Assembly (NCBI GenBank): GCA_015665315.1
Contig: JADFAK010000170.1
Span: 1-36,766 of the forward strand
Direction: 5' to 3'
DNA from: Flavobacteriales bacterium
GTDB taxonomy: Bacteria > Bacteroidota > Bacteroidia > Flavobacteriales_D > Sanyastnellaceae
DNA: 36,766 bases
The notes beneath the pieces were generated by a model that worked only from the letters and a program-made list of their open reading frames with translations, ran no database searches and was not told the DNA's origin. This document shows, in pieces, positions 8,279 to 32,708 of this stretch (within the stretch, counting starts at the first letter, position 1; every line of letters starts with the position of its first letter). A program made the translations under genes and the position numbers.

Positions 8279-9739
8279 ATGATTCGAGTCGTTTTAAGTA
8301 CCCTGATTTTATCTTTTTGTGCCATTAGTTTGACTGCTGGCAACTTGCAAGCTTGGTTTGACTACAAAGTCTTCCAACTTCCAGGTGGTTCTCCTTATGT
8401 TGAAACCCATTTGAATTTCAAAGGTTTGTCCTTAGAACACACTGCTGTCAACGACTCTACTGATCAAGCTAAAGTGAGTGCGACCATCATAATCAAGCAA
8501 GGAGAGGACATCATAAACTTCAAAAAACTCACCATTGACGGTCCGCTTATTCCTACTGGTTACTACCAAGATTTCATGGATGTGCAACGTTTTCTCCTCG
8601 AAAATGGCGCCTATATCGTCGAAATCGAGTTAAGCGATTTGAATGACGCGAACCAGGACCCCGAGATCTTTGCGCAGCCCATCCTGGTCAACAATCCAGT
8701 CGACCAATGCTTTGTGAGCGATATCATGCTGGTTCAAGCCTATGCCGAGGCTTCCGAGCAATCGGATCTCAGTAAATCGGGCTATGACATGCTGCCTTAT
8801 GTGGACAATTACTTCCCATCCGATTTCAACGACCTCATGTTCTATGCTGAAATTTACAACGCAGATGAGATTTTCGGGGAAGATGAATTATTTGCGCTTG
8901 TCGCTCGCCTTGAATCAAAAAACAGTGGAACAATTGCGGCAAACCAGCAAATTATACGCCGAGTGAAAGCAAAAGAAGTCGTTCCGATTTTTCAAACTTT
9001 CGATATCAGTGAGCTCACTACAGGTGATTATGATCTTGTTGTGGAAGTGCGCAACCGGGAAAACCAGTCTGTAGCCTCTCAACGCCTGAAGATTACGCGC
9101 AATAAATTTCAAGGAGAAGGCACGGCACCTGTAGATATTACTAGAACTTTTGTATCGGTATTCGAGACGCGCGACTCCATTATGGATCATATTCGGTCTT
9201 TTAGTCCGCGAGCAACGACCTTGGAAATGAAAGCGATGAATTCAATAGTGCTTCCCGGCGACCTCACGATTCAGCAAAAATTCTTTTACAACTTCTGGGT
9301 TTCACGTGATCCCATCAATCCCGAAAAGGCTTGGAACGATTATTACCAAGAGGTGGTGGCTTGTGACAAGGAGTTTGGAACACAAATTATGGAAGGTTGG
9401 GAAACCGACATGGGACGTGTCTACTTGAAGTATGGCCGACCAAATACGCGTGTTCAACGACCACATCCCTCAGACTTATATCCTTATGAAATCTGGCACT
9501 ATTACCAAATTGCCAATACCAACGACAAGCGATTCTTATTCTATGCACCCACGGGAATAACCACGAATTACGTACTCTTGCATTCTGATTTAGTTGGAGA
9601 GATGCAAAACTTCAGCTGGCGGACCGTAATGCGTGTTGTGAGCGGACAGTTCTACTCGCAACAGGATAACTTGGATCAAAATAAGAACACTTCATTTGAA
9701 GGTGAAGAATTAGAAGCCTTATTTTACAATCCAAGATAA
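8279..9739 (+). CDS. GWxTD domain protein, exported
   Basis: The 486-aa protein has a Sec signal peptide (1-20, ending LTAGN) and a mature part of mainly beta-sandwich character. The C-terminal GWxTD domain is identified by EGWETDMGRVYLKYGRP (about 372-388) and YEIWHYYQI (about 403-411). GWxTD proteins are frequent in Bacteroidota and related phyla; they are exported and of unknown function, often placed beside glycan or gliding genes. The next gene, a GT2 glycosyltransferase, begins 12 nt downstream in the same reading frame, so the two are an operon. The ATG at 8279 directly opens the signal peptide. Confidence 0.85.
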   Translation: MIRVVLSTLILSFCAISLTAGNLQAWFDYKVFQLPGGSPYVETHLNFKGLSLEHTAVNDSTDQAKVSATIIIKQGEDIINFKKLTIDGPLIPTGYYQDFMDVQRFLLENGAYIVEIELSDLNDANQDPEIFAQPILVNNPVDQCFVSDIMLVQAYAEASEQSDLSKSGYDMLPYVDNYFPSDFNDLMFYAEIYNADEIFGEDELFALVARLESKNSGTIAANQQIIRRVKAKEVVPIFQTFDISELTTGDYDLVVEVRNRENQSVASQRLKITRNKFQGEGTAPVDITRTFVSVFETRDSIMDHIRSFSPRATTLEMKAMNSIVLPGDLTIQQKFFYNFWVSRDPINPEKAWNDYYQEVVACDKEFGTQIMEGWETDMGRVYLKYGRPNTRVQRPHPSDLYPYEIWHYYQIANTNDKRFLFYAPTGITTNYVLLHSDLVGEMQNFSWRTVMRVVSGQFYSQQDNLDQNKNTSFEGEELEALFYNPR

Positions 9740-9751
9740 AATAAGTGTGCT

Positions 9752-10780
9752 TTGGACCAAATTGCCGTTGTCATTCTTAATTGGAATGGCCTTTCCTTTT
9801 TACAGAAATTCTTGCCGACCGTTGTTGCATGCAGCCCGGAAGCTGAAGTCTGGATCATAGACAATGGTTCGACCGATGATTCATTGGCCTGGGTACGCGC
9901 GTCTTGTCCATCGGTAAGTATTCAAGAAAACGGCCGCAATTACGGGTTTGCGAAGGGGTACAATGCTGGATTGAAGTATATCCCTGCCGACTATTACGTT
10001 CTTCTCAATTCCGATGTCGAGGTTACTGAAAATTGGATCGCCCCTGTTCTGGCGACGATGAAATCGATGAACTTTGCCGCTTGTCAGCCCAAAATTAGAG
10101 ACTACAACCGCAAAGACTACTTCGAATATGCTGGAGCTGCAGGCGGATATTTGGATAAAAACGCCTTTGCCTTTTGCGCTGGTCGCATGTTTTATGAATA
10201 CGAAGAAGATCTGGGGCAATACGACGAATCGCGAGAGGTTTTTTGGGCTTCTGGGGCTTCACTTTTCATCGATGCGAAGAAGTACAATGAAGTGGGCGGC
10301 CTAGACGTCGATTTCTTTGCGCATATGGAGGAAATTGACCTCTGCTGGCGCTTGAAGAACCGTGGGTACCGCATAGGATATTGTGCCGATTCGACTGTTT
10401 TTCATGTTGGTGGCGGGACTTTGAATCAGCTGAATCCGTTCAAAACGTATCTCAATTTCAGAAACAACCTCTTCCTTATCACCAAGAACCACTTTTCTAG
10501 CCCTCTCCTACCTCATCTTTTTCGAAGGTTGGCGATTGATGGAATTGCCGCTGTGCGTTTTCTGACGGAGGGAAATTTTAAGTACTTGGCGGCGGTTTTC
10601 AAGGCGCACATTTCATTCTATGCCTCTTTCGGAAAAATGCGCAAGAAAAGAAAGTTAATTCACGCGGCTTTGCACAAACCGAATCTCGAAGGCCAATACA
10701 ATAGAAATGTACTTTGGGACTTCTTCATTAAAAGAAGAAAACACTTTACTGAACTCGATCCAGAGCAGTTTAAGGCCTAA
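9752..10780 (+). CDS. GT2-family glycosyltransferase (rhamnosyltransferase-like)
   Basis: The 342-aa protein is an inverting GT-A-fold glycosyltransferase of family 2. It opens with VVILNWNG (about 6-13). It carries the nucleotide-sugar site IIDNGSTDDS (about 35-44), the DxD-like LLNSDVE (84-90) and an acceptor or catalytic segment FFAHMEEIDLCWRLKNRGY (about 188-206). WcaA/RfbN-like enzymes of this type add sugars such as rhamnose to polysaccharides at the inner membrane. The start must be TTG at 9752: the frame follows directly after the in-frame TAA (9737-9739) of the previous gene, with only AAT AAG TGT GCT between. The donor and acceptor sugars cannot be assigned. Confidence 0.88.
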   Translation: MDQIAVVILNWNGLSFLQKFLPTVVACSPEAEVWIIDNGSTDDSLAWVRASCPSVSIQENGRNYGFAKGYNAGLKYIPADYYVLLNSDVEVTENWIAPVLATMKSMNFAACQPKIRDYNRKDYFEYAGAAGGYLDKNAFAFCAGRMFYEYEEDLGQYDESREVFWASGASLFIDAKKYNEVGGLDVDFFAHMEEIDLCWRLKNRGYRIGYCADSTVFHVGGGTLNQLNPFKTYLNFRNNLFLITKNHFSSPLLPHLFRRLAIDGIAAVRFLTEGNFKYLAAVFKAHISFYASFGKMRKKRKLIHAALHKPNLEGQYNRNVLWDFFIKRRKHFTELDPEQFKA

Positions 10781-10859
10781 ACGCCGCACTTACAAAGTTT
10801 ATTCGCAGGAATAATTGTCGGTTTCAGGGTGCGCTTATCTTGGTACAAACTGCTAAGAT

Positions 10860-12953
10860 ATGTGGGCCAGAGCTCCTTTGTTCAGACTTGCCATTCCGTT
10901 CTTCTGTGGAATGTATTTGCATCCTAGTACTTCCTTGCCGACTTTGGGAATTCTTTGTGGATTCCTGCTCATTCTGTTCACATTCCTGCAATATTTTCAC
11001 CTTCGGATCTGGAGTTACCATCATCGCCATGAGGGAGGGATGCTGACTTTCGGCGTTGTTTTCGTTTGTGGTTTGTTATGCGGACAACTCGGTCAGCAAC
11101 CAGCAACACCCTTTCCGACTGAAACTCCCAGTTCAATCACGGCACTGGAAATAACCGATGGTCCAAGCGAGAGAAAGTCTTCAATTCGCTACCAGGCCAA
11201 GCTAGTTGGCGCGACCGACGCACGTGTGGAAAGCCAGCGGGGAACGACGATTTGGCTCTACATCAAAAAAGACAGCTGCGAATTGTATTGCCCCGGGAAT
11301 ATCTTGGCGGTGAACAAGGCCCCCAAGGAAATTCAAGGTCCGCAAAATCCTGGTGAATTCGACTTTAAAGCCTACTCTTCCATTCTCGGAATAACGGGGA
11401 TGCTTTACGCCGTTCCAGACGATGTTCAACTAATCGACTCGACGCAAACAAGGTCACTTTTTTCATCCGCACGCGATCATATGCTGTCTAGGCTTGATTC
11501 ATCTGGACTGTCCACTGCACAATTGGGAGTCATTAAGGCCTTGTCTTTGGGATACAAGGATGACTTAGAATCGGCGCAAAAGGAGGACTTTGCCAAAGCT
11601 GGGGCCATGCACGTTTTGGCGGTATCGGGGCTTCATGTCGGACTGATCTACATGGTTCTGAACACTTTGTTGAAGGTACCTCCGGGGTTTCGGAAATTGA
11701 GGATTCTCAAAGGCTTGGTGGTCATCTCATTCATTTGGCTTTATGCCGGAATCACCGATTTCTCGCCTTCGGTATTGCGTTCATCGGTTATGTTCACTTT
11801 TCTCGTTGCTGGAGATTTATTGGGTCGGAAATTAAGCACCTTGAACAGCATTGCGGCATCGGCATTCTTCTTGGTGTGCTTGCAGCCGACTATCATATAT
11901 CGATTGGGTTTTCAACTGAGCTATTTGGCCGTTTGTGGGATTGTTATTTTTCAACCATTTCTCGCATCGTTGCTTGTACCGCGATTTAAACCAATCCGCT
12001 GGGCTTGGGACTTGACCTGCGTGAGCATTGCGGCCCAACTATTCACCTTGCCACTTACCTTGTATTATTTTGGGCATTTCCCCGTGTACGGCATATTGGC
12101 CAATCTCTTGATTATCCCACTGGCCACAGGACTTTTGTATTCAAGTTTACTCTTCTCGCTCCTCCCCTCAATCAAATGGGTTAGCACAGCACTGGAATTT
12201 ATCGTGGATATTCTTTCTACCTGCATGTTGGCCACGACCTCCTTTGTATCTCGTCTGCCCGGATCACAACTTACAGCACAATTGAGCGACTCCTGGGCCA
12301 TGCTGCTCCTCTTGTTGCTGGTGGTCGCCTTGGTCGTTTACCTTTTGTCGGCCATAAGGACTTGGCTCTTCGCCGTTGGCCTACTACTGCTCGTTTTGTT
12401 AAGTTGGCCGGCCCTCAAAGAATTTGGAAGTCAGTCCGATCCCGCTCTTTGTATTCACGCCTTTCCAAAATCCACCTGTATTTCATTTTTAGGAGAAGGC
12501 CGGGGGACCATTATGGCCCATGAGGAAGCCCATCTCGATTCAATAAGTCTGGAGCAAAAAGTAAAATGTTCGTGGAATCACTTTGATATTGACTGGAATA
12601 CGCGACAAGCGCAAATGCTGGGAAGGGGTATTACTTTGATAGAAGTGGGCACGAATAAATACCACGTGAACACGGGTGACTTGTCCGACTACAAATCGAA
12701 TGGCGAGTTCACATTAGTTATACCGCATGAGAAATGGAATGATGCCTACCGAAAATACTTCGTGCATGGACACAGCATAGTTTTAGACGAAAGCATCTCG
12801 TATTACGAACGAAACGATTGGATTCGCACATTGAAGGAAGAAGGGCAGGATTATTGGGATATTCGGGAAGAGGGAGCCTTGATCTTAACTAGGACCGATA
12901 TAGAAGCTGCATCAAGAAAGTATCGACGTACATCTCCCACTTTTTCAGATTGA
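10860..12953 (+). CDS. comEC: ComEC/Rec2-family DNA-uptake channel
   Basis: The 697-aa polytopic protein is the inner-membrane channel through which single-stranded DNA enters the cytoplasm in natural transformation. N-terminal membrane helices (about 8-95) are followed by an OB-fold-like extracytoplasmic domain (about 95-210). The competence domain is recognised by HVLAVSGLHVGLI (about 250-262), LYAGITDFSPSVLRS and LGFQLSYLAVCGI. About ten helices are present in all. The C-terminus (about 520-697) is a short soluble region without the metallo-beta-lactamase HxHxDH motif, as in many Bacteroidota homologues. The 3' end overlaps a convergent gene by 65 nt. Presence of comEC alone does not prove competence. 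Confidence 0.92.
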   Translation: MWARAPLFRLAIPFFCGMYLHPSTSLPTLGILCGFLLILFTFLQYFHLRIWSYHHRHEGGMLTFGVVFVCGLLCGQLGQQPATPFPTETPSSITALEITDGPSERKSSIRYQAKLVGATDARVESQRGTTIWLYIKKDSCELYCPGNILAVNKAPKEIQGPQNPGEFDFKAYSSILGITGMLYAVPDDVQLIDSTQTRSLFSSARDHMLSRLDSSGLSTAQLGVIKALSLGYKDDLESAQKEDFAKAGAMHVLAVSGLHVGLIYMVLNTLLKVPPGFRKLRILKGLVVISFIWLYAGITDFSPSVLRSSVMFTFLVAGDLLGRKLSTLNSIAASAFFLVCLQPTIIYRLGFQLSYLAVCGIVIFQPFLASLLVPRFKPIRWAWDLTCVSIAAQLFTLPLTLYYFGHFPVYGILANLLIIPLATGLLYSSLLFSLLPSIKWVSTALEFIVDILSTCMLATTSFVSRLPGSQLTAQLSDSWAMLLLLLLVVALVVYLLSAIRTWLFAVGLLLLVLLSWPALKEFGSQSDPALCIHAFPKSTCISFLGEGRGTIMAHEEAHLDSISLEQKVKCSWNHFDIDWNTRQAQMLGRGITLIEVGTNKYHVNTGDLSDYKSNGEFTLVIPHEKWNDAYRKYFVHGHSIVLDESISYYERNDWIRTLKEEGQDYWDIREEGALILTRTDIEAASRKYRRTSPTFSD

Positions 12954-17999: not shown

Positions 18000-18557
18000 T
18001 TGAAAGGAGAATTCGACATATTTGACATTTACCACGGATTGGAGCGTAACAACGTTATGCTGTTATTCAAGGGAGAGCTGACTCCCGATTTGATCAATTC
18101 CATCCTTCACATCGTAGAAGAAAAGATGAATCGATCAGATACTAACCTAAAGATTCGGAAAAAAGTATTTAATATTCTCGTAGAGTGTTTACAAAATCTG
18201 TATCATCACAATCAGATTAAAAGCAGTGATATTGATGCCAACAGTGATTTCCCAGCAGGAATGGTTATGGTCGCCGAAGACGACGATGGATATTCAATCA
18301 TGACGGGAAATTTTATTGCTTCTGAAGTCGTATCTTCTTTGCAAAAGAAATTGGAGGAGATCAACGACTTGGATCGAGAAGGGTTGAAAGCACTGTACAG
18401 TAAGATTCTGGACAACGGAGAAATGACTAAGAAAGGAGGAGGAAGTCTAGGCCTTATCGAGATAGCACGTAAGTCGGGAGAAAAGCTTGAATTTGGCTTT
18501 GCCCCATTAAACAATATGAATAATTTTTTCAGTCTCAACGTAAAAGTTAATCACTGA
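18000..18557 (+). CDS. siaB: SiaB-family protein kinase
   Basis: The 185-aa GHKL-fold protein matches SiaB, which in Pseudomonas phosphorylates the small partner SiaC. The N-box helix KKVFNILVECLQNLYHH contains the expected Glu62 and Asn66, and KKGGGSLGLIEIAR (about 140-153) is the Gly-rich ATP-lid region. The start is TTG at 18000: the only in-frame alternative upstream, before a stop at 17946, is a rare ATT, and MKGEFDIFDIYHGLERNNVML fits the family N-terminus. siaC follows after 3 nt. In Pseudomonas SiaC phosphorylation is reversed by the phosphatase SiaA and controls the diguanylate cyclase SiaD; neither is visible here, so the output is unknown. Confidence 0.88.
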   Translation: MKGEFDIFDIYHGLERNNVMLLFKGELTPDLINSILHIVEEKMNRSDTNLKIRKKVFNILVECLQNLYHHNQIKSSDIDANSDFPAGMVMVAEDDDGYSIMTGNFIASEVVSSLQKKLEEINDLDREGLKALYSKILDNGEMTKKGGGSLGLIEIARKSGEKLEFGFAPLNNMNNFFSLNVKVNH

Positions 18558-18560
18558 CAC

Positions 18561-18935
18561 ATGGAAGACATTAGAATACAAGGAACACCCAAAACGCCAA
18601 CTGTAAATTTCATTTCCAGTGAAGGTCTATTAGAAATCAAAGGAAGATCTATTCCTGAGAACTCGATTGAGTTTTACAAGCCGTTAATCGACTGGATTGA
18701 AAGCTATGCTCAGCAACCAAATGATTCGAGCAACGTGAATATTCAACTTGAGTATTTCAATACCAGTTCGTCCAAGTGCATCCTGGACCTCTTCAAGAAG
18801 CTTGAGGCGATCAATAAATCGATCACGATCAACTGGTATTACGAGGAGGATGATGAGGATATGCTAGAAGCTGGTGAGGATTACGAAGCCATCATCAATA
18901 TTCCGTTTAAAATGATTGAAGTCGAGGAGATTTAG
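18561..18935 (+). CDS. siaC: SiaC-family regulatory phosphoprotein (DUF1987)
   Basis: The 124-aa protein is the substrate of SiaB. The phosphorylation-site region reads LEYFNTSSSK, with Thr68 at exactly the residue number reported for the phosphorylated Thr of Pseudomonas SiaC. It starts 3 nt after the siaB stop and ends at a strong terminator, so siaB and siaC form a two-gene operon. The C-terminus is strongly acidic (YEEDDEDMLEAGEDYE). It probably switches the activity of a partner protein by phosphorylation, but no diguanylate cyclase is encoded in the window. Confidence 0.9.
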   Translation: MEDIRIQGTPKTPTVNFISSEGLLEIKGRSIPENSIEFYKPLIDWIESYAQQPNDSSNVNIQLEYFNTSSSKCILDLFKKLEAINKSITINWYYEEDDEDMLEAGEDYEAIINIPFKMIEVEEI

Positions 18936-18955: not shown

Positions 18956-18989
18956 AAAGCCGGCTTTCTACATGAAGGTCGGCTTTTTT
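18956..18989 (+). terminator. Terminator of siaB-siaC
   Basis: GCCG-G-CTTTC (18959-18968) pairs with GAAGG-T-CGGC (18974-18983), with one G-T and one mismatch-like pair, followed by six T. Confidence 0.85.
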
Positions 18990-19405
18990 CGTTGCTGGTT
19001 CTCAATGTTTAGCAATAAATGCAAATGATTCTTCTAGCCCAACATTTGCCAACGGCTAGAAAAAGAAATACTAGCCCTGCACGACTTAATTCTCCTTTCG
19101 AAGGCTGAACAAACAAAACGACGGGAAATGAATCAATAAGAACTTGGGTGATTCGAGCCAGAAATACGGATTTCAACTACTGCATTGCATTTGCCAGCGG
19201 CTAGAAAAAGAAATGCTAACCCTGCACGACTTAATTCTCCCTTCGAAGGCTGAACAAACAAAACGACGGGAAATGAATCAATAGGAACTAGGGTGTTTTG
19301 AGCCAGAAATACGGATTTCAACTACTGCATTGCATTTGCCAGCGGCTAAGAAAACCACCAACCATGAAATCGAATGATCAAGAAGGGGACACAAACGACA
19401 GGCAG
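18990..19405. other. Intergenic region without genes
   Basis: Apart from the 145-bp tandem repeat I see no gene or RNA in this stretch. A 17-bp palindrome (AGCTATTC-C-GAATAGCT, 19404-19420) overlaps the stop codon of the ABC transporter gene that ends at 19406. Confidence 0.5.
19043..19350. repeat. 145-bp tandem repeat (two full copies and a partial third)
   Basis: Units start with CATTTGCC at 19043, 19188 and 19333, exactly 145 bp apart. The first two copies are over 90% identical along their whole length; the third stops after about 18 bp. The first base block, CATTTGCCrrCGGCTA, is the inverted form of the dispersed motif at 2784 and 5111. The upstream boundary carries GCAAATG (19021-19027), which can pair with CATTTGC (19043-19049). 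No reading frame is convincingly coding. Confidence 0.9.
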
Positions 19406-22400
19406 CTATTCCGAATAGCTAAACTTAACCCTCAATTTCAGGAGTTTTGCCAAACGCTCGGCAACACGCGTTAACAATTCAATTAAGCGTCGCAGTCCGT
19501 CGAAAAACAGCGTAACAACCATCAACATCGTCATGATCCAAATGACCATCATATTGGCCGAGAAGGTGGTAATCTGCTTGCCGAAAAGATTCTTGGAAGG
19601 AGCGTAAAACTGTGCTTTGAGGAAAGACTTGTGTATCGGAGTAATGTAGACAGGGTCGCTTTTTTGCACCAACTCGCCTTCGTACTCGACGATCTTTTCC
19701 ATTTCGTTTTCATTCGTCACGAAATCGGCCAAGCTCTCATTGAAATGTTCGTCTTTGATCCTTAGGTACTCTGCTTTTTTATCCGGCGTATTGGCAGCCA
19801 ATCCGATCACCTCGTCTTTGGCATTGAACTCTTTGTTGTAGCCCTTTTTGTAGAACTGATTGAGTTGATCCAGGCTCACCTTCACATTTTCTAGCACTTC
19901 GTGGGTCACTTTGGACGGATAGAGCTCATCAAATTGTGAAAATCTAAAATTGGCAAATTCCTTTTGTTCTTTCTCAAACTCATTGCGAATCAAGAGCAAG
20001 TTGTAATCTAGTTTGGTAGCGTCCTCTCCAGAGGCCAACAGGTTTTGGCATTCGATCGTCTTGCTCCGAATATCCTTGATCCAATAATCCTTTTTCCACT
20101 TGTAGCGCTCGATTTTCATGTCAAAATCAAACACCTGCTTCACGTGCTTGTTGTTCTTGTATTGGTACACGGCCATGGCTTCATAGGCCCAGCGGCTCGC
20201 CATAATATTGCCTATCCAAGGAACGCTGCTCTCGGATGAAAAGAGCGGATAGAGCTTGTCAAACTTCACAATTACCCCCGAAAACAAGAGTTGTGGAATG
20301 ATGAGAATAGGAATGAGGATATAAATAACTTTCGCCGAGTTGAAGCTGGCTGAGATATTGAGTCCGAGTAGATTGGCAAAGCAAGAAGTGGTAAATAGCA
20401 CAATCCAAAAAGGTAGGATCATGTCTTGAATTTCTAGGATGGTGTTTCCAACGAGCACGTAAAAAAGCGACTGCACCGCTGAAATCAGGAACATAATCCC
20501 AATTTTAGAACTCAGATAACTTCCTTTGCTCAAGTTGAGAAACTTTTCTCTTTTGAGAATTTTTTGATCGCGAATAATTTCTTCGGCGCTCACTGTCAGA
20601 CCGAGGAAAAGCGACACAATAACGGAGATGAACAAGAACTGTGGAATATTCTCACTTTCCCTAAAAATATAGCTTGAGGTAGCCTCCTCTCCTATTTTGT
20701 AATACTTGATGAAAAAGGACAACACGAAGGCCAAAAGTGGTGCTTCAAGAGTGTTGATAATCATGTATTGTTGATTCGCAATTTTACTCAACGCGTCGCG
20801 CGTAAGAAAAACACGAAGTTGCTTGAGCTTGTTGGGAATGCTAAAAGACGTGGTAGGAGTTTCTCGCTTTCTATCACGGATTTTTATGTGGTTACCAATG
20901 ATCACATTGAAGAAATTATTCCACTCACGAGGAGAGATCTTTCTGTGTTCGGTAAGGTTTCCGTATTCATCGACCACTTTGGACTCGATGATATTAAATA
21001 TTTGTTCGGGGTTCACATTTCCGCACCTGGGGCATTCGCTTTCGGTAACGTTGACGTGGTTAACCAGTTTCTTGAAATAGATAATACTCTCAACCGGGTT
21101 ACCATAATAAATCGGATAGCCTCCTTGATCTAGGATGAACAACTTGTCGAACATTTTAAAAATGTCGGACGAAGGCTGATGGATCACTACAAAGATTAGC
21201 TTCCCTTTCAAGGTGAGCTCTTTGAGTAAGTCCATAATATTTTCTGAATCTCGGCTAGACAATCCTGATGTAGGCTCATCTACGAACAATACGGCCGGCT
21301 CACGAATCAACTCCAGAGCAATGTTCAATCTCTTTCGTTGTCCGCCCGAGATAGTCTTTTCCATCGGCGACCCCACAGTAAGATCCCGGGCCTCAAACAG
21401 TCCGAGCTGCATAAGTGTTTCGTGGACGAGCGCAGTAATTTCCTCATCTCCTTTTTTCCCAAAACACAACTTGGCATTGTAGAACAGGTTCTCAAAAACA
21501 CTCAGCTCTTCTATGAGCAGGTCATCTTGCGCAACATAGCCGATTACACCTTCAATTTCATCGGATTCATGGTGAATGTCAATTCCATTGATCGTTACCT
21601 TTCCGAAGGTAGGCGTGTAGTTTCCATTGAGAACATTGAGCAAGGTAGACTTTCCCGAACCACTTGCTCCCATAATCCCAATCAGGGATCCTGATTCTTC
21701 GAACAGGTTTAATTGGTGTAGAGCTTGTTTGTTATTTCGCTTGAAATAGTAAGATACATTCTCGGCACGAAAAACGATGTTCATGCTGTCCGACTCATCC
21801 AAGAACCTATGGATTATGTCGCTGTAGTAGATCGGACTTATCTTGGAACCTCGGATAGACGATCCTTGAAGGAATACGTAGCTTCTGCTATTGCCTAAGG
21901 CCTGTCCGTTGAGCAGCAAGTCTTCGTTTCCAAAATATCGAACAAGGAACATGTTTTCCTTTTCGAGTCTGAAAAAAATGAATTTCCCCAGTAAGCCTTC
22001 TTTTTCTATGTGTTTGGCCGCTTTGAGATGTTCAGGTTTTTGGCTACCGGAAATCAATAAAAATTCAGGGTGATCGATCCAACCCTCTTCTTTTGCTGAG
22101 GCCAGCTCTACCAGGTACTCGTAGGTTTCTCGTTCAATGTTAAACGTATCAGCAACTGTCTCGACAAATTCCCATTCCTGGTCGTTGGTGTCTGGGAAAG
22201 CGCTAATAAACTCCAGCAGCCTCATGAGAACGAAAATTTTCTCTTTCTGGGCTAATTCTTCATTGATACGGGTACAAATTCTAAGAACTTTGACAGAAGA
22301 CAGTGATGTACGCTTGCGCGTTCCTTCCTTGCCGTCCTTTCTTTTGCTCTGATTCTGCGCGAGCAGCTCGTCATAAACATCCAAGTATTTGAGTACAAGG

Positions 22401-22531
22401 TCTTTATTCAGCTGCTGACGCAAGAACATCGCGACAATATTTCGTCCGGAGTCTGCATCACTTTCTCCCTCACCGCCTCGGGCGATGATAGCAAAAAGTT
22501 GCATTAAAGCTTTTAATATACCTGCACTCAT
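19406..22531 (-). CDS. Large ABCG-type ABC transporter with N-terminal TerB-like domain
   Basis: The protein is 1041 aa from the ATG at 22531 (an in-frame TTG at 22561 would add 10). Order: a helical TerB-like domain (about 1-150), an FHA-like beta region (about 185-245), an ABC ATPase, then a membrane half of about six helices. The ATPase has Walker A GASGSGKST (about 288-296), signature ISGGQRKRLN (about 394-403) and Walker B VLFVDEPTSGL (about 414-424), with the late H-loop IHQPSSD. A large soluble, coiled-coil-rich domain (about 790-980) precedes the last helix. A CxxC (CPRC, about 500-503) lies between the ATPase and the membrane part. ABCG half-transporters usually export lipids or hydrophobic compounds; the substrate here is unknown. 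Confidence 0.85.
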   Translation of the reverse strand: MSAGILKALMQLFAIIARGGEGESDADSGRNIVAMFLRQQLNKDLVLKYLDVYDELLAQNQSKRKDGKEGTRKRTSLSSVKVLRICTRINEELAQKEKIFVLMRLLEFISAFPDTNDQEWEFVETVADTFNIERETYEYLVELASAKEEGWIDHPEFLLISGSQKPEHLKAAKHIEKEGLLGKFIFFRLEKENMFLVRYFGNEDLLLNGQALGNSRSYVFLQGSSIRGSKISPIYYSDIIHRFLDESDSMNIVFRAENVSYYFKRNNKQALHQLNLFEESGSLIGIMGASGSGKSTLLNVLNGNYTPTFGKVTINGIDIHHESDEIEGVIGYVAQDDLLIEELSVFENLFYNAKLCFGKKGDEEITALVHETLMQLGLFEARDLTVGSPMEKTISGGQRKRLNIALELIREPAVLFVDEPTSGLSSRDSENIMDLLKELTLKGKLIFVVIHQPSSDIFKMFDKLFILDQGGYPIYYGNPVESIIYFKKLVNHVNVTESECPRCGNVNPEQIFNIIESKVVDEYGNLTEHRKISPREWNNFFNVIIGNHIKIRDRKRETPTTSFSIPNKLKQLRVFLTRDALSKIANQQYMIINTLEAPLLAFVLSFFIKYYKIGEEATSSYIFRESENIPQFLFISVIVSLFLGLTVSAEEIIRDQKILKREKFLNLSKGSYLSSKIGIMFLISAVQSLFYVLVGNTILEIQDMILPFWIVLFTTSCFANLLGLNISASFNSAKVIYILIPILIIPQLLFSGVIVKFDKLYPLFSSESSVPWIGNIMASRWAYEAMAVYQYKNNKHVKQVFDFDMKIERYKWKKDYWIKDIRSKTIECQNLLASGEDATKLDYNLLLIRNEFEKEQKEFANFRFSQFDELYPSKVTHEVLENVKVSLDQLNQFYKKGYNKEFNAKDEVIGLAANTPDKKAEYLRIKDEHFNESLADFVTNENEMEKIVEYEGELVQKSDPVYITPIHKSFLKAQFYAPSKNLFGKQITTFSANMMVIWIMTMLMVVTLFFDGLRRLIELLTRVAERLAKLLKLRVKFSYSE

Positions 22532-22623
22532 TGGGGGTGGATTATTATCTTCAAAGGGCAAGTTTCCGTTAAAATAGGAGATTCCATTGCAGTAACCTCT
22601 CTACTGTCTTCGTAGGAAATGGA

Positions 22624-23040
22624 CTATTGTTTGAAGCCGACTAAGAGTACGGCACATCCTGATTCCCTTTTCTTGTGATCGAGTTGTGCTTCAATCGTAC
22701 AATTGACTGTTGAGCCCACTACGAAATCCCAATAGGGTGCATTCAAGTGGTCGGCATTGCTAAAAAGTTCGTTCTTTTCTTCATCGAAAATTCGGAAGAT
22801 AAGATTGCCATCTTCTGCTCCACTGCAGGCTGCAATTCGGTAGGTACTGGCACCGAACATGGTCATTTGAAATTCGGCTACTTGATCGTGATATAGCAGT
22901 GCTCGATACATTTGACCGTCAGAAATATATTCGTCTGACATGTTGTGCCCACACCATGTTGCTATGCTATCACATTGAGCATTGACTGAGAATCCTATTG
23001 CTGCGAACAGCGCTATGAATGTTATTTTGATTGCTTTCAT
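22624..23040 (-). CDS. Secreted protein of unknown function
   Basis: The 138-aa protein has a Sec signal peptide (1-21, ending SVNAQ). The mature part contains six Cys (in CDSIATWC, RIAACSG, NCTIEAQ and GCAVLLVGF), suggesting disulfides outside the cytoplasm, and looks like a small beta-sandwich. I do not recognise a family. It begins 2 nt after the stop of the upstream lipoprotein gene, so the two are an operon and probably act together at the cell envelope. Confidence 0.65.
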   Translation of the reverse strand: MKAIKITFIALFAAIGFSVNAQCDSIATWCGHNMSDEYISDGQMYRALLYHDQVAEFQMTMFGASTYRIAACSGAEDGNLIFRIFDEEKNELFSNADHLNAPYWDFVVGSTVNCTIEAQLDHKKRESGCAVLLVGFKQ

Positions 23041-23042
23041 GC

Positions 23043-23975
23043 TTAGCTTATGATAATGGTTCTAATTTCTGATAGTTTGGTTCTGATTTGCTCAACATGG
23101 GCATCAGTAACCTCAACGCTACTCTTACAATTGAAGTAAGTCGTTTTTTCATCCTCGTCTGTGATAGGTGCCTCATAGGCGTATGAATACACCATTGAGT
23201 CAAAAATTCTTAGGACGTCGGTCAGACCTTTGCGCACTTGATTTACTTGCGGATCGTCATATTTACTTAGCAAAGCGACTAGACTTGTAAGGGCCGATCG
23301 TTGCTCACCAATCCTTTTTCTAATATCTTCATTGCTCTTGGCTACATCCAAAGCGATATGCAATGCTTCTATCCAGCCTCCGGCAAGAATCAAGCTGGCC
23401 GCTTCATTTCGCTCATTGTCCTTCAAATACTGGTTCACCTCACGATAGAGTTCGGCGTTCAAGACGTACAGAGAATCGCGTATTTCGCTGTTCTCGTGAA
23501 ATCGTGAAATAATTGTTGGATTGATGTTGTTTTTAATTCCCAAGTCATCGGCCAAGCGCTCAACGAGGGTGAAATACTCGATGCTCATTGACGTATTGTC
23601 GAAGTTTGACAAATAGGCCAAATCAGCTCCGTAAACGCCCATATTCATGGCTTTTTGAAATTGATTTACATAGCCCTTGTAGTTACTTGAAGGGTTAAGC
23701 AAAGCCTCGTTGTATGGAATTTTGGACTGACGAATAAGGAGGGCAGTCTGGATAGGAGATGGAATACTGAAGATCTCGCCTTTATACTTGATCACAGATC
23801 CACTCAAGCCTCCATCGCCGTTCTCCTTGATTTGAGGAATAGAGTCAGTAAGTACCTCTGCTCCGTCTTGGTCACTACTAGTCTCGCTGCAGGATGCCAA
23901 GCTAAATACTAGCGTGCCTACCGCAAGAGCAGACAGGAAATTTCGTTTGATAGGTGATGCCATTTGATTGAACAT
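23043..23975 (-). CDS. Lipoprotein of unknown function, alpha-helical
   Basis: The 310-aa protein has a type II signal peptide with lipobox FSLASC (lipidated Cys29 from the ATG at 23975; an ATG at 23963 is also possible). Ser/Asp/Glu residues follow (CSETSSDQDGAEVLTD), which could act as a surface-export signal (inference). The mature part is mostly helical, with no motif I can name. It is first in a two-gene operon with the secreted protein at 22624. A hairpin GGTTTA-ACGAC-TAAACC (24000-24016) lies in its leader. Confidence 0.65.
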   Translation of the reverse strand: MFNQMASPIKRNFLSALAVGTLVFSLASCSETSSDQDGAEVLTDSIPQIKENGDGGLSGSVIKYKGEIFSIPSPIQTALLIRQSKIPYNEALLNPSSNYKGYVNQFQKAMNMGVYGADLAYLSNFDNTSMSIEYFTLVERLADDLGIKNNINPTIISRFHENSEIRDSLYVLNAELYREVNQYLKDNERNEAASLILAGGWIEALHIALDVAKSNEDIRKRIGEQRSALTSLVALLSKYDDPQVNQVRKGLTDVLRIFDSMVYSYAYEAPITDEDEKTTYFNCKSSVEVTDAHVEQIRTKLSEIRTIIIS

Positions 23976-26392: not shown

Positions 26393-27181
26393 CTAGAAAT
26401 CTCGCCGATCGCCTTTCCACACCATGGCGAGAAGTGGAAGCACGATCCATGAAATAATAGTAGCAGCGCTAATTAGCATACCCGTAGTTGATCCAAAGAA
26501 TTTGCTAAAAACGGCTCCGGAGTACCCCATGAGAGAAGCTACATCCAGTTTCAACATGATAAAAATCCTTCCCATGTCGATTGGATTTAGCATGCTCAAT
26601 ACAATCGCATGCTCTTCTATGGGATATTCTGCAAACACCACGAAATAGAGCAGCATAAGTCCGTCATAAACAACAGCCATCAAGAGCCAAATGATCAAGG
26701 CCATTCCAATTCCCCTCAACTTGTCACTTATGGCAACGGACAAAAAGAAGGCAATGCTTGAAAAGACCAAAGACAAGGCCACACCGCAAATAATAAGACT
26801 AATTAAAACAGAGATACTTTGCGTCTGATCCAAGGTAAAAACGATTCCAATGAGCAATCCGACCAACACAGCCAAACTATGCGTAACGGCAATACCGAGA
26901 TAGATTCCCAGAAAGGCGTGTGATCGCTTAACCGGTTGTGACAGCAGTAGATGAAGGAAATCCGTCTTATTGTAGTAATACATGGTGGTCATCATGGTAC
27001 TCACCAAAGGGACAATAAGGATCACAATATTCATCAGGCTCACCACGGATCTTGTGAAGGAGCCTGTGAAATAAATCAACCCAAAAGAAGAAAGCGCGAA
27101 GAAGAGCATATACGTAACTGCCCAAATGCTTTTCAGGTTGTCGATAAAAACAAATTTGAAAATATTCAGCGTGGCCTTCAT
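26393..27181 (-). CDS. nosY: NosY, permease of the NosDFY copper-site maturation transporter
   Basis: The 262-aa inner-membrane protein has six helices and is the permease subunit of the NosFY ABC transporter, which supports assembly of the CuZ site of nitrous oxide reductase. The family segment near NPIDMGRIFIMLKLDVASLMGYSGAVF (about 195-222) is clearly present, which separates it from generic ABC-2 permeases. Its ATG overlaps the end of nosF by 4 nt. The C-terminus ends in WKGDRRDF, and the glycosylase gene follows. Confidence 0.92.
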   Translation of the reverse strand: MKATLNIFKFVFIDNLKSIWAVTYMLFFALSSFGLIYFTGSFTRSVVSLMNIVILIVPLVSTMMTTMYYYNKTDFLHLLLSQPVKRSHAFLGIYLGIAVTHSLAVLVGLLIGIVFTLDQTQSISVLISLIICGVALSLVFSSIAFFLSVAISDKLRGIGMALIIWLLMAVVYDGLMLLYFVVFAEYPIEEHAIVLSMLNPIDMGRIFIMLKLDVASLMGYSGAVFSKFFGSTTGMLISAATIISWIVLPLLAMVWKGDRRDF

Positions 27182-27885
27182 GCTATTTGGTTGGTATTTA
27201 AGAAAGCAGCAATGGCTCTTTCAAGAGTTGGCATTCCCGTATCTTGAAGCAAGGTACTCGCTTGTCCGCTGAAAACTATTCTTCCCTCCAAAAGGAAGGC
27301 TATTTCATCGGCAACTTCTTCGACATCGCTCATAATATGGCTTGTGAAAAATATAGTTTTGCCTCGTGCTTTCTCTTCCAAAACCAATTGTTTGAACTTA
27401 ACACGTGAAACCGGATCCAGGCCGACGGTTGGTTCGTCGAGAATAATAATAGGCGACTCGAAAAGAAAAGCAATCACGGCGCTCACTTTTTGGCGCGTTC
27501 CACCAGACAATTCGCCAAGCGGTTTTTTCATGTGATCACCTAGTTGAAAATATTCTACAAGTTTGGCAGGATCAGGATGTACCCCTCTCAAATCACCGAT
27601 CAGCTTTAACAATCTCTCCGCATTTATATTTTCAGCGAAATGTGCTACCTGTGGCATGTATGAAATCAAATTTCGCGCTTCGACATCAACAGAAGAGAAT
27701 CCATTGATTAAGATTTCTCCCCCAGATGGTCGAACAAGATTCAGGATGCATTTGATGAGAGTAGACTTTCCCGAACCATTGGGTCCAAGCAGACTGATTA
27801 CTTTACCTTCATCGATGGTAAAGCAAATATCTTTGAGCACCTCGTTCTTGCGAAAACTTTTAGAAACTGAGTTCAGCGTTATCAT
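27178..27885 (-). CDS. nosF: NosF, ATPase of the NosDFY transporter
   Basis: The 235-aa cytoplasmic ABC ATPase pairs with NosY. Walker A is LLGPNGSGKST (about 32-42), the signature is LSGGTRQKV (about 131-139), Walker B is IIILDEPTVGLDP (about 150-162), and the H-loop is TSHIMSDVE (about 184-192). The 5' end lies in the last 26 nt of nosD and the 3' end overlaps nosY by 4 nt, so translation is coupled. The context next to nosD, nosL and nosZ makes the NosF assignment firm. Confidence 0.94.
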   Translation of the reverse strand: MITLNSVSKSFRKNEVLKDICFTIDEGKVISLLGPNGSGKSTLIKCILNLVRPSGGEILINGFSSVDVEARNLISYMPQVAHFAENINAERLLKLIGDLRGVHPDPAKLVEYFQLGDHMKKPLGELSGGTRQKVSAVIAFLFESPIIILDEPTVGLDPVSRVKFKQLVLEEKARGKTIFFTSHIMSDVEEVADEIAFLLEGRIVFSGQASTLLQDTGMPTLERAIAAFLNTNQIA

Positions 27886-29122
27886 TCACAGGTTGCATTT
27901 GTGGGTTATTATCAATTAGGCTTTCCGGCGTTAGTACCGGTGTTACTTTTTCTGCCAGGTTGAGCAAGTCGATAAATGTACTTCTCATCAGTATAATTGC
28001 GGCGGGTGCTTGAGCGGTGATATAGGTGAACAATTTGACAGGTCGAAAAGGAATGTCTCCTACCCCATCGCGGTCCAAATCATAGCCCGTGTACTCCTCC
28101 CAATAATTCCCATTGAAGTCATTGTAATTCGTACGCGCATTCGTAGTGATATCGAATGAATTCTGGACAAAATCGTTGGCTGTAATGACATTATCATTGC
28201 AGTTTCCCATTATTCTCATCGCGTATCCATTGCGTTCAAAGCGATTGTTGTGCATGACGATCCTACCGGTATTATCGGCGCTGATTGCAATTGTATTGTT
28301 CTTAAAGACATTCCCATCCAATTCGGAATCGGTTATATCTTTCAAAAGCAGTCCATAAGCCGAACCTCCCCAGTTGTTGATGAATAGGTTTTCGATCATA
28401 GTAACGTTAGAAGAATACATCACTGCTACTCCTGCTCCATTCTTTTCAAATCGATTGCGCACATAGGTATTATCATGAGAGAACATGAAATGCAGTCCGT
28501 ATCTCATATTTCCTTCACTATGGTTTGAGGTGATCAAACTTCCTTTGACAAATTCGAAGTAAATTCCATCTCTATGAGACATTACCGTGTTGAATTGGAT
28601 GGTCATTTCTTCACAATACCAGAGATGTATAGCGTTACCATTTGCAGACTCCAGGTAATTTTGCTCATTAGCATCTCCTTGAATATCGCAATGTTCGACC
28701 AGTCCATATTTGCTTTTCTCGATCATTATTCCAAAGAATACGTGTCGAATAACTAGGTTGTGAATTGACAAATAATCGCTGTCATTGCATTTGAGCGCAG
28801 CTCTATCTTCGACATAATTGGTTGCGACATTCTGCAATTGAATATGATGAACGGAGACGCTATCGTGATGAATGTATAAAATGGTAAGCCCATTGCCATC
28901 CAAGATAGTACCAGCTTCTCCATGAATGGAAATGGCCTTCTCGATAACCAATTCTGACACCTCGTAGATGCCTTCTTTGATGAAAATATCATCTCCATCT
29001 ACAGCTAGCTCTACGGCACTTGCCAAGGTTGAAATAGGACAATCGGGACATACAACAATTTCCTCACAACTTCCAGCATGAAAGAAGCAGAAAAAGAGCA
29101 GGAACAATGCCAATCTCTTCAT
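27860..29122 (-). CDS. nosD: NosD, periplasmic copper-site maturation protein
   Basis: The 420-aa protein has a signal peptide (1-19) and a carbohydrate-binding/pectate-lyase-like right-handed beta-helix with the copper-handling features of NosD: repeats such as HSEGNMRYGLHFMFSHDNTY and RFEKNGAGVAVMYSSN (about 215-255). NosD acts with NosFY and NosL to insert copper and sulfide into NosZ. The start codon overlaps the end of nosL by 4 nt, and the 3' end overlaps nosF by 26 nt. The length is usual for NosD. Confidence 0.94.
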   Translation of the reverse strand: MKRLALFLLFFCFFHAGSCEEIVVCPDCPISTLASAVELAVDGDDIFIKEGIYEVSELVIEKAISIHGEAGTILDGNGLTILYIHHDSVSVHHIQLQNVATNYVEDRAALKCNDSDYLSIHNLVIRHVFFGIMIEKSKYGLVEHCDIQGDANEQNYLESANGNAIHLWYCEEMTIQFNTVMSHRDGIYFEFVKGSLITSNHSEGNMRYGLHFMFSHDNTYVRNRFEKNGAGVAVMYSSNVTMIENLFINNWGGSAYGLLLKDITDSELDGNVFKNNTIAISADNTGRIVMHNNRFERNGYAMRIMGNCNDNVITANDFVQNSFDITTNARTNYNDFNGNYWEEYTGYDLDRDGVGDIPFRPVKLFTYITAQAPAAIILMRSTFIDLLNLAEKVTPVLTPESLIDNNPQMQPVNDNAELSF

Positions 29123-29547
29123 TCCGAGTATTTATCTAGCATTTGTGACCAGGTAAAAATATCACCGCCATTTTGTGCAGCTAAGTCCTTTGCTTTTTCA
29201 TGAGAAGAAAACGCATTCAAATAGCCCCCCATAGGGCTTGGCATGTTCTTACTTACGAGGTATACAGCCTTGTCTGCATCCACAAAATGCTCTGGGTTAG
29301 CGAAATCGGACACGACAAGAAAAGCATGTTCATTATCTGATTCTGCCAAGTAATACAACATACATTCCGCGGCGTCAAATTTATAAGTCCGCCCCTTGGA
29401 CGTCACAGCTTCAGCCCCAAATTTGGGGTCAGCTATTTGCATCTGACACCAATGGCATGCATCCTGTCCGTATTGAATAGGGGATACTTCAGGCTTACAG
29501 CCAAATGCTAAAACAGTGATGAGGATGAAACAGAGTATTCTTGTCAT
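29119..29547 (-). CDS. nosL: NosL, copper-chaperone lipoprotein
   Basis: The 142-aa lipoprotein has lipobox VLAFGC (Cys17) and the copper-binding motif CHWCQM (Cys31, Cys34, Met36) that defines NosL. FDAAECMLYYL (about 73-83) and GGYLNAFSS are further family segments. NosL delivers Cu(I) to NosZ outside the cytoplasm. It begins 1 nt after the membrane-protein gene and ends inside the start of nosD. Confidence 0.95.
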   Translation of the reverse strand: MTRILCFILITVLAFGCKPEVSPIQYGQDACHWCQMQIADPKFGAEAVTSKGRTYKFDAAECMLYYLAESDNEHAFLVVSDFANPEHFVDADKAVYLVSKNMPSPMGGYLNAFSSHEKAKDLAAQNGGDIFTWSQMLDKYSE

Positions 29548-29548
29548 T

Positions 29549-30130
29549 TTAGTACGATGTTTTGGCCCATTTCTGGTGAACCATACCCCAGATTAAGAGA
29601 AAGCAAGATGTAGCAAGACAAATCCCACCGATGTGCGGGTAAGAAACAGCCTTAAAATTAAGTAGCCATTTGGCACCAAGCAATGGAGGTTGATAGACCA
29701 TACCATCTACTTTAATAGCAGCATGAGGATCAAGGTTATGACCGTAGTCGTACTCCCAAAGCCAGAAGTCAAATATTCCCAACACTGCCAAGATGAGCAT
29801 TAAAAAACCATAAACATAAAGAAGCTTTGGTTGCTTTTTCCACCAAACAAAAAGTCCGAATAGGATCAAGAACACTCCAACATATGGGAAGATTTTCAGT
29901 TCAGGGATGGAGTCAGGCTCAATTTTCTGCATTCCAATATAGTGGTTGAGAATATTGATGTTTTGCAAGGTGCTCTCATCTTGCCCAGTTATTTTATTCA
30001 CCCATATATACATTTCAATTCCATCGGGATATTGGGGAGCATCGAGGGCGATGTACCACAACGGTTGGACAAATATTCCAATAAGGAGAATTGAAGCAAT
30101 TAAGACATATGCTCTTGCAAGTGGTTTCAT
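29549..30130 (-). CDS. Four-helix membrane protein of nos clusters
   Basis: The 193-aa protein has about four membrane helices (about 8-24, 83-97, 103-123 and 165-185). Between helices 1 and 2 lies a hydrophilic loop containing ALDAPQYPDGIEMYIWVNKI and NILNHYIGM (about 28-67). I recognise this as a protein commonly found between nosZ and nosL in Bacteroidota nos clusters. It has no experimentally defined function known to me; NosB-like transmembrane proteins of clade II clusters are a possible comparison. The His and Met residues in the loop (NHYIGM) may bind copper (inference). It follows nosZ after a strong hairpin. Confidence 0.75.
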   Translation of the reverse strand: MKPLARAYVLIASILLIGIFVQPLWYIALDAPQYPDGIEMYIWVNKITGQDESTLQNINILNHYIGMQKIEPDSIPELKIFPYVGVFLILFGLFVWWKKQPKLLYVYGFLMLILAVLGIFDFWLWEYDYGHNLDPHAAIKVDGMVYQPPLLGAKWLLNFKAVSYPHIGGICLATSCFLLIWGMVHQKWAKTSY

Positions 30131-30157
30131 CGTTTGTTCGTTTAGTCTTATAATAAA

Positions 30158-30187
30158 TCAATCCAACCCCTTGCGGAGTTGGATTGA
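30158..30187 (-). terminator. Intercistronic hairpin between nosZ and the maturation genes
   Basis: On the minus strand TCAATCCAAC (30187-30178) pairs perfectly with GTTGGATTGA (30167-30158) across a 10-nt loop, followed by TTTATTAT. It is probably a partial terminator or mRNA-stability structure that makes nosZ more abundant than the downstream maturation genes. Confidence 0.6.
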
Positions 30188-30209
30188 TGAAATTCAGATA
30201 ATTATTTTC

Positions 30210-32183: not shown

Positions 32184-32203
32184 GATAATGTGTTGAGAAT
32201 AGT

Positions 32204-32689
32204 CTACTTAGTTGGGTTTTCTTCGGCAAATTTTCGGAAGTACTCCAATACAGCTCTTGCCTCGTCCTCGGTCAGGTTTTGATTGGCCATTGGAGAAAGG
32301 TATTCGGCGAAAAGTTCTTTAGCCACTGGATCTTCCTTTACCATTTGCTCAGGATTGAGAATCATGTTCATGATCCAAGCGGGACTGTGTCTTTCAAGAA
32401 CTCCATTGAGTGCAGGACCAACATGACGCTTTTCCATTTTATGACACGAAGTACATAGGTTGGTGAAAATCGTATCACCTTGAATGGCAAGTGCATTGTC
32501 TATCGGACCAAGAATCATGGCCTCTTTAATTGGTCCTATTCCCTCCGGTCCAATTTCAGCCTTTGGGGTATAAACCTCAAAGCTTTCTTCAATCTGATCG
32601 TCCGTAGCCTCATCCGTTTCGCCTCCGCAAGAGAACAAAACAAAGGCACTTAGTAGAACGATAATAAATGCTGGAATTCTTAATTTCAT
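32204..32689 (-). CDS. Lipoprotein cytochrome c of the nos operon
   Basis: The 161-aa lipoprotein (lipobox VLFSC, Cys21) has an acidic linker (ETDEATDDQIEES) and one c-type heme domain: CTSCH (Cys79, Cys82, His83), with Met134 in LSPMANQ as the probable axial ligand. It is encoded directly before nosZ and is the likely electron donor to its CuA site, anchored to the same membrane face. It is comparable to the small cytochromes of clade II nos clusters. Confidence 0.9.
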   Translation of the reverse strand: MKLRIPAFIIVLLSAFVLFSCGGETDEATDDQIEESFEVYTPKAEIGPEGIGPIKEAMILGPIDNALAIQGDTIFTNLCTSCHKMEKRHVGPALNGVLERHSPAWIMNMILNPEQMVKEDPVAKELFAEYLSPMANQNLTEDEARAVLEYFRKFAEENPTK

Positions 32690-32708
32690 GTTTCAATTAT
32701 TAGAACGT

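Follow-up and report, generated by a model that had tools for sequence, protein, structure and literature searches.

A SiaB-SiaC pair in Bacteroidia and an adjacent ABC transporter as its candidate output

Results

The DNA analysed here, called the window throughout, is a stretch of 36,766 nucleotides that makes up contig C40 of a 4.6 Mb genome assembly (G000, 99.27% complete). Genes were called throughout with a simple longest-ORF script. The window holds a kinase gene and its putative substrate gene on the forward strand, facing a three-gene transporter cluster on the reverse strand:

siaB, 18000..18557, forward strand: TTG start, 185 aa, HATPase-type protein kinase with N-box E62/N66 and a GGGSLGLIEIARKS box
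siaC, 18561..18935, forward strand: SiaC phosphoprotein family, 124 aa, T68 in FNTSSSK
terminator-like hairpin and T run, 18956..18986, forward strand: 3' of siaC
ABC transporter (proposed output), 19406..22531, reverse strand: ABC ATPase and ABC-2 membrane protein with a TerB-like and FHA-like N-terminus
w22, 22624..23040, reverse strand: 138 aa, signal-like N-terminus by eye, in the w23-w22-ABC cluster
w23, 23043..23975, reverse strand: putative lipoprotein of about 300 aa, at the head of the w23-w22-ABC cluster

Window SiaB matched the Pfam family PF19788 (DUF6272) with an E-value of 1.4e-39 and 135.3 bits (cut-off 26.6) and the NCBIfam family NF038262 (SiaB_fam_kinase) with 167.9 bits (cut-off 85), and window SiaC matched the Pfam SiaC family PF09345 with an E-value of 1.5e-43. 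Both scored below the P. aeruginosa-type equivalogs, with 84.2 bits against a cut-off of 225 for SiaB (NF038264) and 93.2 bits against 150 for SiaC (NF038265). By profile score the two proteins are members of their families and belong to different equivalogs from the P. aeruginosa proteins. Using phmmer, SiaB matched its P. aeruginosa counterpart (6kko_A, E 3e-15), the E..QN boxes falling opposite each other, and SiaC matched P. aeruginosa SiaC (6kko_C, E 4e-17; the same SiaC sequence is found in 7e6g) with T68 opposite T68; by residue count E62 and N66 of SiaB lie within VECLQN. A preliminary description of this DNA had read a complete SiaB-SiaC pair with these three residues, and the Pfam, NCBIfam and phmmer matches bear out the pair just as counting and alignment put the residues where they had been placed.

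The TTG start of siaB is in accordance with the called SiaB genes of two relatives (L117 and L138), which begin at about the same position. A gap of three bases between siaB and siaC together with the hairpin after siaC fits a two-gene operon; the hairpin is the sole such site between 17750 and 19450, which is weak support given that 1.1 are expected in shuffled sequence. No Rfam family matched between 17800 and 19500, and neither SpoIIE nor GGDEF domains matched anywhere on the window contig. The stretch from the siaC hairpin to the transporter gene contains a 145-nt tandem duplication (19043-19354, 94% identical) with the 22-nt start of a third copy, which is absent from the eight other stretches of the same genome that were compared. 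Further along, positions 26393-33275 hold what we take to be a nos-like (nitrous-oxide reductase) cluster, with a NosZ-like protein of 657 aa, NosL-, NosD- and NosF/Y-like proteins and a cytochrome c.

SiaC of P. aeruginosa switches on a c-di-GMP synthase (PMC8457831, PMC7647112, PMC12834913), SiaD, whose SiaC-binding motifs are S50-Q54 and S82-Q86, T68 of SiaC contacting S82 and Q86 (PMC8457831). In a phylum sample of 296 genomes we found SiaC in 18 genomes, at 28 places. The proteins encoded after siaC have in common some 76 N-terminal residues, the stalk (alignment A1, 14 rows), with a motif like K-I-T-R-I-[SG]-D-x-x-Q in which the Asp and the Gln are invariant. When the A1 profile was run against 177,635 PDB sequences the best match was P. 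aeruginosa SiaD (7e6g_A, whole-sequence E 0.0015), followed by a designed protein (E 0.02). The two aligned SiaD stretches are individually weak (i-E 0.43 and 54) and cover, at chain positions 16-56 and 64-100 with one position construct-offset, both SiaC-binding motifs. A single stalk used in phmmer against the PDB did not recover SiaD, whereas the 14-row profile did; when the stalk-GGDEF protein of L048 is taken in full, its alignment to 7e6g_A begins within the stalk, at residue 75. Since the profile finds SiaD best and covers both motifs, the absence of a stalk match is informative.

Outside families f1 and f8 a stalk was found near SiaC at 16 of 20 SiaC places, in 15 cases within about 230 nt and in one about 2.1 kb off. 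These stalks come with different partners:

stalk and histidine kinase: L049, L050, L063, L067 and L068 by Pfam, L047 by similarity
stalk and GGDEF: L048, L051
stalk and adenylate/guanylate (class III) cyclase: L062, L069
stalk and PP2C: L058
stalk and membrane-like tail (by eye): L064
stand-alone stalk: L054, L065, L070
stalk with split frame, assigned to no output: L052

Because the domain after the stalk differs between loci, the stalk looks like a portable SiaC receptor. Strong stalk matches, the best one in each genome reaching an E of 3e-22 or lower, occur in 12 of the 18 SiaC-bearing genomes of the phylum sample, where six further strong matches lie away from SiaC. They are missing in G109 and in the five SiaC-bearing genomes of the window's class (G000, G045, G049, G146 and G186), with weak matches alone in G186 and G109 (E 0.01 and 0.03). 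The locus L064 also encodes, at 9662-11539 beside SiaC, a 625 aa protein that combines response regulator, PP2C and SiaB domains and so has phosphatase and kinase in one chain.

The window's own genome gave no match to GGDEF (PF00990), a search that was positive in 8 of 14 control genomes, and no match to the stalk profile at E <= 10. The preliminary description had claimed a pair without SiaD whose output partner is probably different; the first claim is borne out by these two null results and, as the genome has neither domain, the second is well supported. A SiaD encoded elsewhere in this genome is rejected on the same grounds. The accompanying remark that many Bacteroidota have few or no GGDEF proteins holds for this genome, which has none, and is qualified by two other genomes of the phylum sample that carry a stalk-GGDEF gene after SiaC. 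One class III cyclase gene (on C15) was considered as a partner within the genome and set aside, the stalk profile having no match there.

Beyond the window the genome holds six SpoIIE-type PP2C genes (PF07228), none of them on C40 and two of them tied to siaBC through gene context in relatives. It also carries two SiaC genes and four SiaB domains in three genes, that is window SiaB and three domains in two further genes:

double-SiaB fusion (367 aa) and SiaC with Ser68, L039 371-1859 (contig C12): both N-boxes intact by eye
solo SiaB, L040 8578-9177 (contig C36): N-box intact by eye, HD-domain gene next

No SiaC gene lies near the solo SiaB in its 18 kb stretch. The second SiaC gene, siaC2, comes after the double-SiaB fusion, encodes Ser at position 68 and ends 370 bases from the end of C12. 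Contig C18 starts with a TPR-PP2C gene, and in G045 (L071), a genome of the same family, the same order is seen for a double SiaB, a SiaC, a convergent PP2C and the five genes beyond it. The ends of C12 and C18 share 96 31-mers, without an exact end-to-end overlap. From this gene order and the shared 31-mers, C12 and C18 are probably neighbours and a PP2C probably adjoins siaC2. A further PP2C gene, on C39, encodes a HAMP-PP2C protein of 592 aa (HAMP 25.4 bits, cut-off 25) and is preceded by YfiR-like and TPR-like genes. At the related locus L117 siaB-siaC is followed on the same strand by genes for a YfiR-like protein and for proteins of 322 and 595 aa, which are 35%, 28% and 45% identical, respectively, to the YfiR-TPR-PP2C cluster of C39. 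By similarity and gene context a SiaA-like enzyme is encoded in this genome, apart from siaBC, and is a candidate for acting on window SiaC.

The earlier statement that the pair lacks SiaA thus stands for the window and falls for the genome. Likewise, the pair that had been described as alone in a two-gene operon does fit an operon, in a genome that has a second SiaC, three more SiaB domains and six PP2C genes. Finding both siaA and siaD elsewhere had been named as what would make this the ordinary pathway, and of the two siaA-like genes were found and siaD was not.

For the neighbourhood of SiaC we used the best 80 of at least 452 relatives, selected by SiaC similarity. Three of them without a SiaC call (L136, L157 and L162) were excluded, leaving 77 loci, and six further loci with under 900 nt downstream were excluded from the adjacency count, leaving 71. 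Within these best 80, SiaB is encoded directly upstream of SiaC in 73 of 77 loci, and an ABC gene lies at most two genes downstream of SiaC in 33 of 71 loci and not in the other 38. The window has no called gene between siaC and the transporter, and here as in G045 the two genes are convergent. In families f1 and f8 the gene adjoining SiaC encodes an ABC transporter of 1023-1051 aa, and in f8 the order is PP2C-SiaB-SiaC-ABC, all on one strand. The "same-strand" ABC genes of L138 are a different gene pair and were excluded from the profile count of the TerB/FHA region. Seen from the transporter side, in 20 loci from 20 families hand-picked among the best matches to a profile that itself derived from SiaC-linked loci, SiaC adjoins the transporter in 6 loci and not in 14, and w22 and w23 stand beside the ABC gene in 18.

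The co-occurrence of the two genes was examined in both samples. Across the 296 genomes of the phylum sample the transporter N-terminus (E <= 1e-10) was found in exactly five, which are the SiaC-bearing members of the window's class; the 13 other genomes with SiaC and the 278 without it had no match. In a class sample of 395 Bacteroidia genomes SiaC was present in 213, the transporter N-terminus in 187 (profile A4, E <= 1e-15) and the stalk in 26 (E <= 1e-4; best E per genome 1e-16 to 4e-5). Both SiaC and transporter occur in 178 of these genomes, SiaC only in 35, the transporter only in 9 and neither in 173, giving a Fisher p of 4e-63 that ignores relatedness and rests on a transporter profile derived from SiaC-linked loci. 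With SiaC in 213 of these genomes, the switch is nothing unusual in the class.

By family, 43 of 44 families with the transporter also have SiaC. Five families have SiaC without the transporter; four of them (f85, f88, f105 and f114) carry a stalk and one (f91) does not. By genome, a stalk was found in 18 of the 35 with SiaC and no transporter, against 7 of the 178 with both. The remaining 17 SiaC-bearing genomes have neither transporter nor stalk, 10 of them being under 90% complete and 7 not, and among the nine genomes with the transporter only, one (G523) is a single contig. The pattern also varies within families: in f2 four genomes have both genes, four neither and three SiaC only, and in f8 three have both and one (G076) neither. 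Up to 11 SiaC and 6 transporter candidates were scored per genome of the class sample; SiaC matches number up to at least 11 in a genome and transporters 1-3, hence other SiaC copies must have other outputs. Some members of the class, G298, G316 and G487 among them, have a strongly enlarged SiaC family.

The transporter start was taken as the ATG at 22531, the open reading frame reaching a TTG at 22561, and the protein matched the Pfam families ABC_tran (E 1e-30) and ABC2_membrane (E 1.3e-18). We modelled residues 1-252 from 34 sequences (pLDDT 88). The best structural matches to this model were the TerB-like structures 2h5n_A and 2ou3_A, with Z-scores of 9.0 and 7.2 that are within the range helical bundles reach. 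Below this pair, 48 of the 50 matches shown were mostly FHA domains or FHA-containing proteins at Z 5.4-6.5 over 73-92 residues, where a Z under 8 may reflect a common arrangement; they cover residues of about 150-250, with a Foldseek E of 0.019 at best. The TerB family PF05099 (cut-off 24.4 bits) was passed by 3 of 8 scanned proteins (L122 with 31.1, L150 with 25.9 and L171 with 25.1 bits) and had no match in the window's transporter. Pfam gave no FHA match in the transporter at E <= 10, and a profile search of its N-terminus against the PDB gave no useful match. FHA domains usually bind phospho-threonine through canonical residues of the form GR...SxxH. In a 15-row alignment inspected by eye neither the GR nor the SxxH residues were evident, and a [KR]H is mostly conserved in the corresponding FHA-like stretch.

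Neither w22 nor w23 matched a Pfam family. A Cys at the end of the w23 signal is invariant in an alignment of 12 sequences. As w23 resembles a lipoprotein and w22, by eye, an exported protein, an envelope or export role is likely for the predicted w23-w22-ABC system. A SiaC docking motif in the C-terminal tail of the transporter was considered too, the window's LLTRVAERLAKL resembling the stalk motif, and was rejected given that the tail has no conserved motif among the homologs compared.

The SiaC protein itself is the most conserved of the three. Across the named loci (the best 80 of at least 452 relatives), identity to the window ranges over 68-81% for SiaC (77 loci), 34-51% for SiaB (76 loci) and 45-63% for the transporter (39 loci), a comparison in which choosing the loci by SiaC favours SiaC. 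In G045, of the same family, SiaC is 81% and SiaB 36% identical to the window. The high conservation of SiaC relative to SiaB suggests, in loci that were SiaC-selected, a constrained partner besides the kinase. Among 87 window-type SiaC sequences the 14 positions that correspond to SiaD contacts have a conservation of 0.938 against 0.773 at the other 104, a value reached in 26 of 20,000 random draws; 34 stalk-type sequences show a weaker trend (0.687 against 0.551; 527 of 20,000 draws). Of the 14 contact positions, window SiaC shares Y65, N67, T68 and S69 with P. aeruginosa SiaC and departs from it at the other 10, with charge reversals at D29R, D79K and R103D. The changes to R29, I31 and D100 are also common in stalk-type SiaC of Bacteroidota, so that changes at contact positions do not alone mark a new partner.

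Discussion

We tentatively propose, at somewhat less than an even chance, that the SiaB-SiaC pair of the window supplies kinase and substrate to a SiaA/B/C-type switch that acts on the neighbouring ABC transporter instead of on a diguanylate cyclase. SiaB would phosphorylate SiaC on T68, and a HAMP- or TPR-linked SiaA-like PP2C encoded elsewhere in the genome would dephosphorylate it when a signal arrives from the envelope or periplasm. Whether SiaC is phosphorylated would then decide if it docks on the TerB/FHA-like N-terminus that the transporter presents to the cytoplasm, and this docking, whether by the free or by the phosphorylated form, would switch the w23-w22-ABC system. Established here are the intact SiaB and SiaC, the PP2C genes, a genome in which no GGDEF or stalk was found, the recurrent adjacency and co-occurrence of SiaC and transporter, and the conservation of contact positions. 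We infer the phosphorylation of SiaC in this organism, the PP2C that acts on it, the direct contact of SiaC with the transporter and the form that binds. Co-occurrence and gene context suggest the transporter as output; the nine genomes with the transporter only, the 17 SiaC-bearing genomes with neither transporter nor stalk and the convergent orientation in the window weaken the proposal. The preliminary description had advised a search for the partner by co-occurrence, and this is the route by which the transporter comes to be proposed.

Other explanations have to be weighed against the transporter. SiaC might act on a coiled-coil, possibly membrane-anchored partner with an over-diverged stalk, the transporter being a mere neighbour. 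Proteins of this kind do exist in the class: its stalk-bearing genomes encode proteins of 140-199 aa with a stalk, a coiled coil and, by eye, a hydrophobic, TM-like C-terminus, mostly directly after SiaC, and in G326 (L310) such a stalk gene stands between SiaC and the transporter. Some copies have a weak motif already (L305 and L317). We regard this as unlikely in the window's genome, however, for the profile, which picked up diverged copies in 26 of the 395 class genomes, found none in G000, G045 and G549, the stalk has no match in G000 even at E <= 10, and no other gene was called between SiaC and transporter. In the loci L305 and L317 (family f88), from small genomes without a transporter match, SiaB-SiaC pairs stand in tandem, and one or two genes for a stalk with a TM-like tail come after them. 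About as doubtful, and a shade more so, is an association that is historical and not functional, in which the class inherited both SiaC and the transporter from its ancestor and other lineages lost the two together. Both are widespread (213 and 187 of 395 genomes), their neighbours in Bacteroidales loci resemble housekeeping genes by eye, and Fisher's test ignores relatedness; yet the two genes vary together within families f2 and f8, four of the five SiaC-only families carry a stalk instead, and the adjacency is kept while other neighbours change.

The two SiaC genes, the four SiaB domains in three genes and the six PP2C genes of G000 would also suit a partner-switch network in which the window's pair feeds the other SiaB and SiaC proteins (the double SiaB, SiaC2 and the solo SiaB) and has no enzyme or transporter of its own. 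We consider such a network improbable, as conservation of SiaC above SiaB points, in loci chosen by SiaC, to a constrained partner that is not the kinase, and as one SiaB stands directly upstream in nearly all of the named loci (73 of 77, from the best 80 of at least 452). Least probable by far is an ordinary SiaABCD pathway with a SiaD encoded at another place in the genome, for which the presence of SiaB, SiaC and SiaA-like proteins speaks and which the complete lack of GGDEF and stalk matches in a 99.27% complete genome contradicts.

A broader reading of the adjacent transporter as output, which we put forward as speculation that is unlikely as a whole, would make SiaB/SiaC a general threonine-phosphorylation output selector with a single type of docking stalk, exchanged among GGDEF, histidine-kinase, PP2C, class III cyclase, membrane-anchored and stand-alone forms. 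In much of the class the transporter would take the place of the stalk and be gated by SiaC directly, and the FHA-like part would perhaps read phospho-T68, such that phosphorylation creates docking and does not abolish it. That FHA domains bind phospho-threonine and that Pseudomonas SiaC is a phospho-threonine protein suggest this mechanism, which is a lead only since the GR and SxxH residues are not evident. If our hypothesis were correct, in a large part of a major bacterial class a transport system would be under the direct control of a Ser/Thr phospho-switch, with the same switch apparently wired to several different outputs in other lineages. For the SiaC subfamily with the highest conservation in this study, the transporter is a specific candidate partner open to testing, and the stalk profile offers a means of reading SiaC outputs from sequence.

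The literature gives the proposal some background. DUF1987 proteins in general were suggested to modulate adjacent proteins, in the part of PMC8457831 drawn on here; the "SiaC" of PMC11885536 is, by the part of that article used here, an unrelated sialidase. Judged by titles and the start of abstracts, the open PMC literature yielded no SiaC output beyond SiaD, the articles found named none in the window's class, and a search there for TerB/FHA ABC transporters gave no lead. Our results suggest, on grounds of co-occurrence and gene context, a specific transporter output for a known switch.

The system shares with P. aeruginosa SiaABCD the SiaB and SiaC families, the kinase N-box, T68 together with Y65, N67 and S69, and a candidate membrane-type PP2C in the genome. 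It differs from SiaABCD in that no GGDEF or SiaC-binding stalk was found, in that the SiaA-like gene lies outside the operon, and in that 10 of the 14 SiaD-contact positions of SiaC are changed, three of them charge-reversed; its proposed output is an ABC transporter. In HsbA/HsbD and BgrV/BgrR, as described in the part of PMC8457831 cited here, a phospho-controlled STAS-domain protein likewise binds and modulates an output, which there is a diguanylate cyclase, absent from the genome studied here. Unlike those STAS-domain proteins, SiaC belongs to DUF1987, which is structurally related to STAS.

A further comparison is with Rv1747 of Mycobacterium tuberculosis, an FHA-ABC transporter linked to the kinase PknF. 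Both are ABC-2 type transporters with a cytoplasmic FHA or FHA-like part and a possible link to threonine phosphorylation. In the window's transporter, unlike Rv1747, the FHA-like part comes after a TerB-like part and is without an evident phospho-threonine motif, and the kinase would be of the SiaB type, acting on SiaC.
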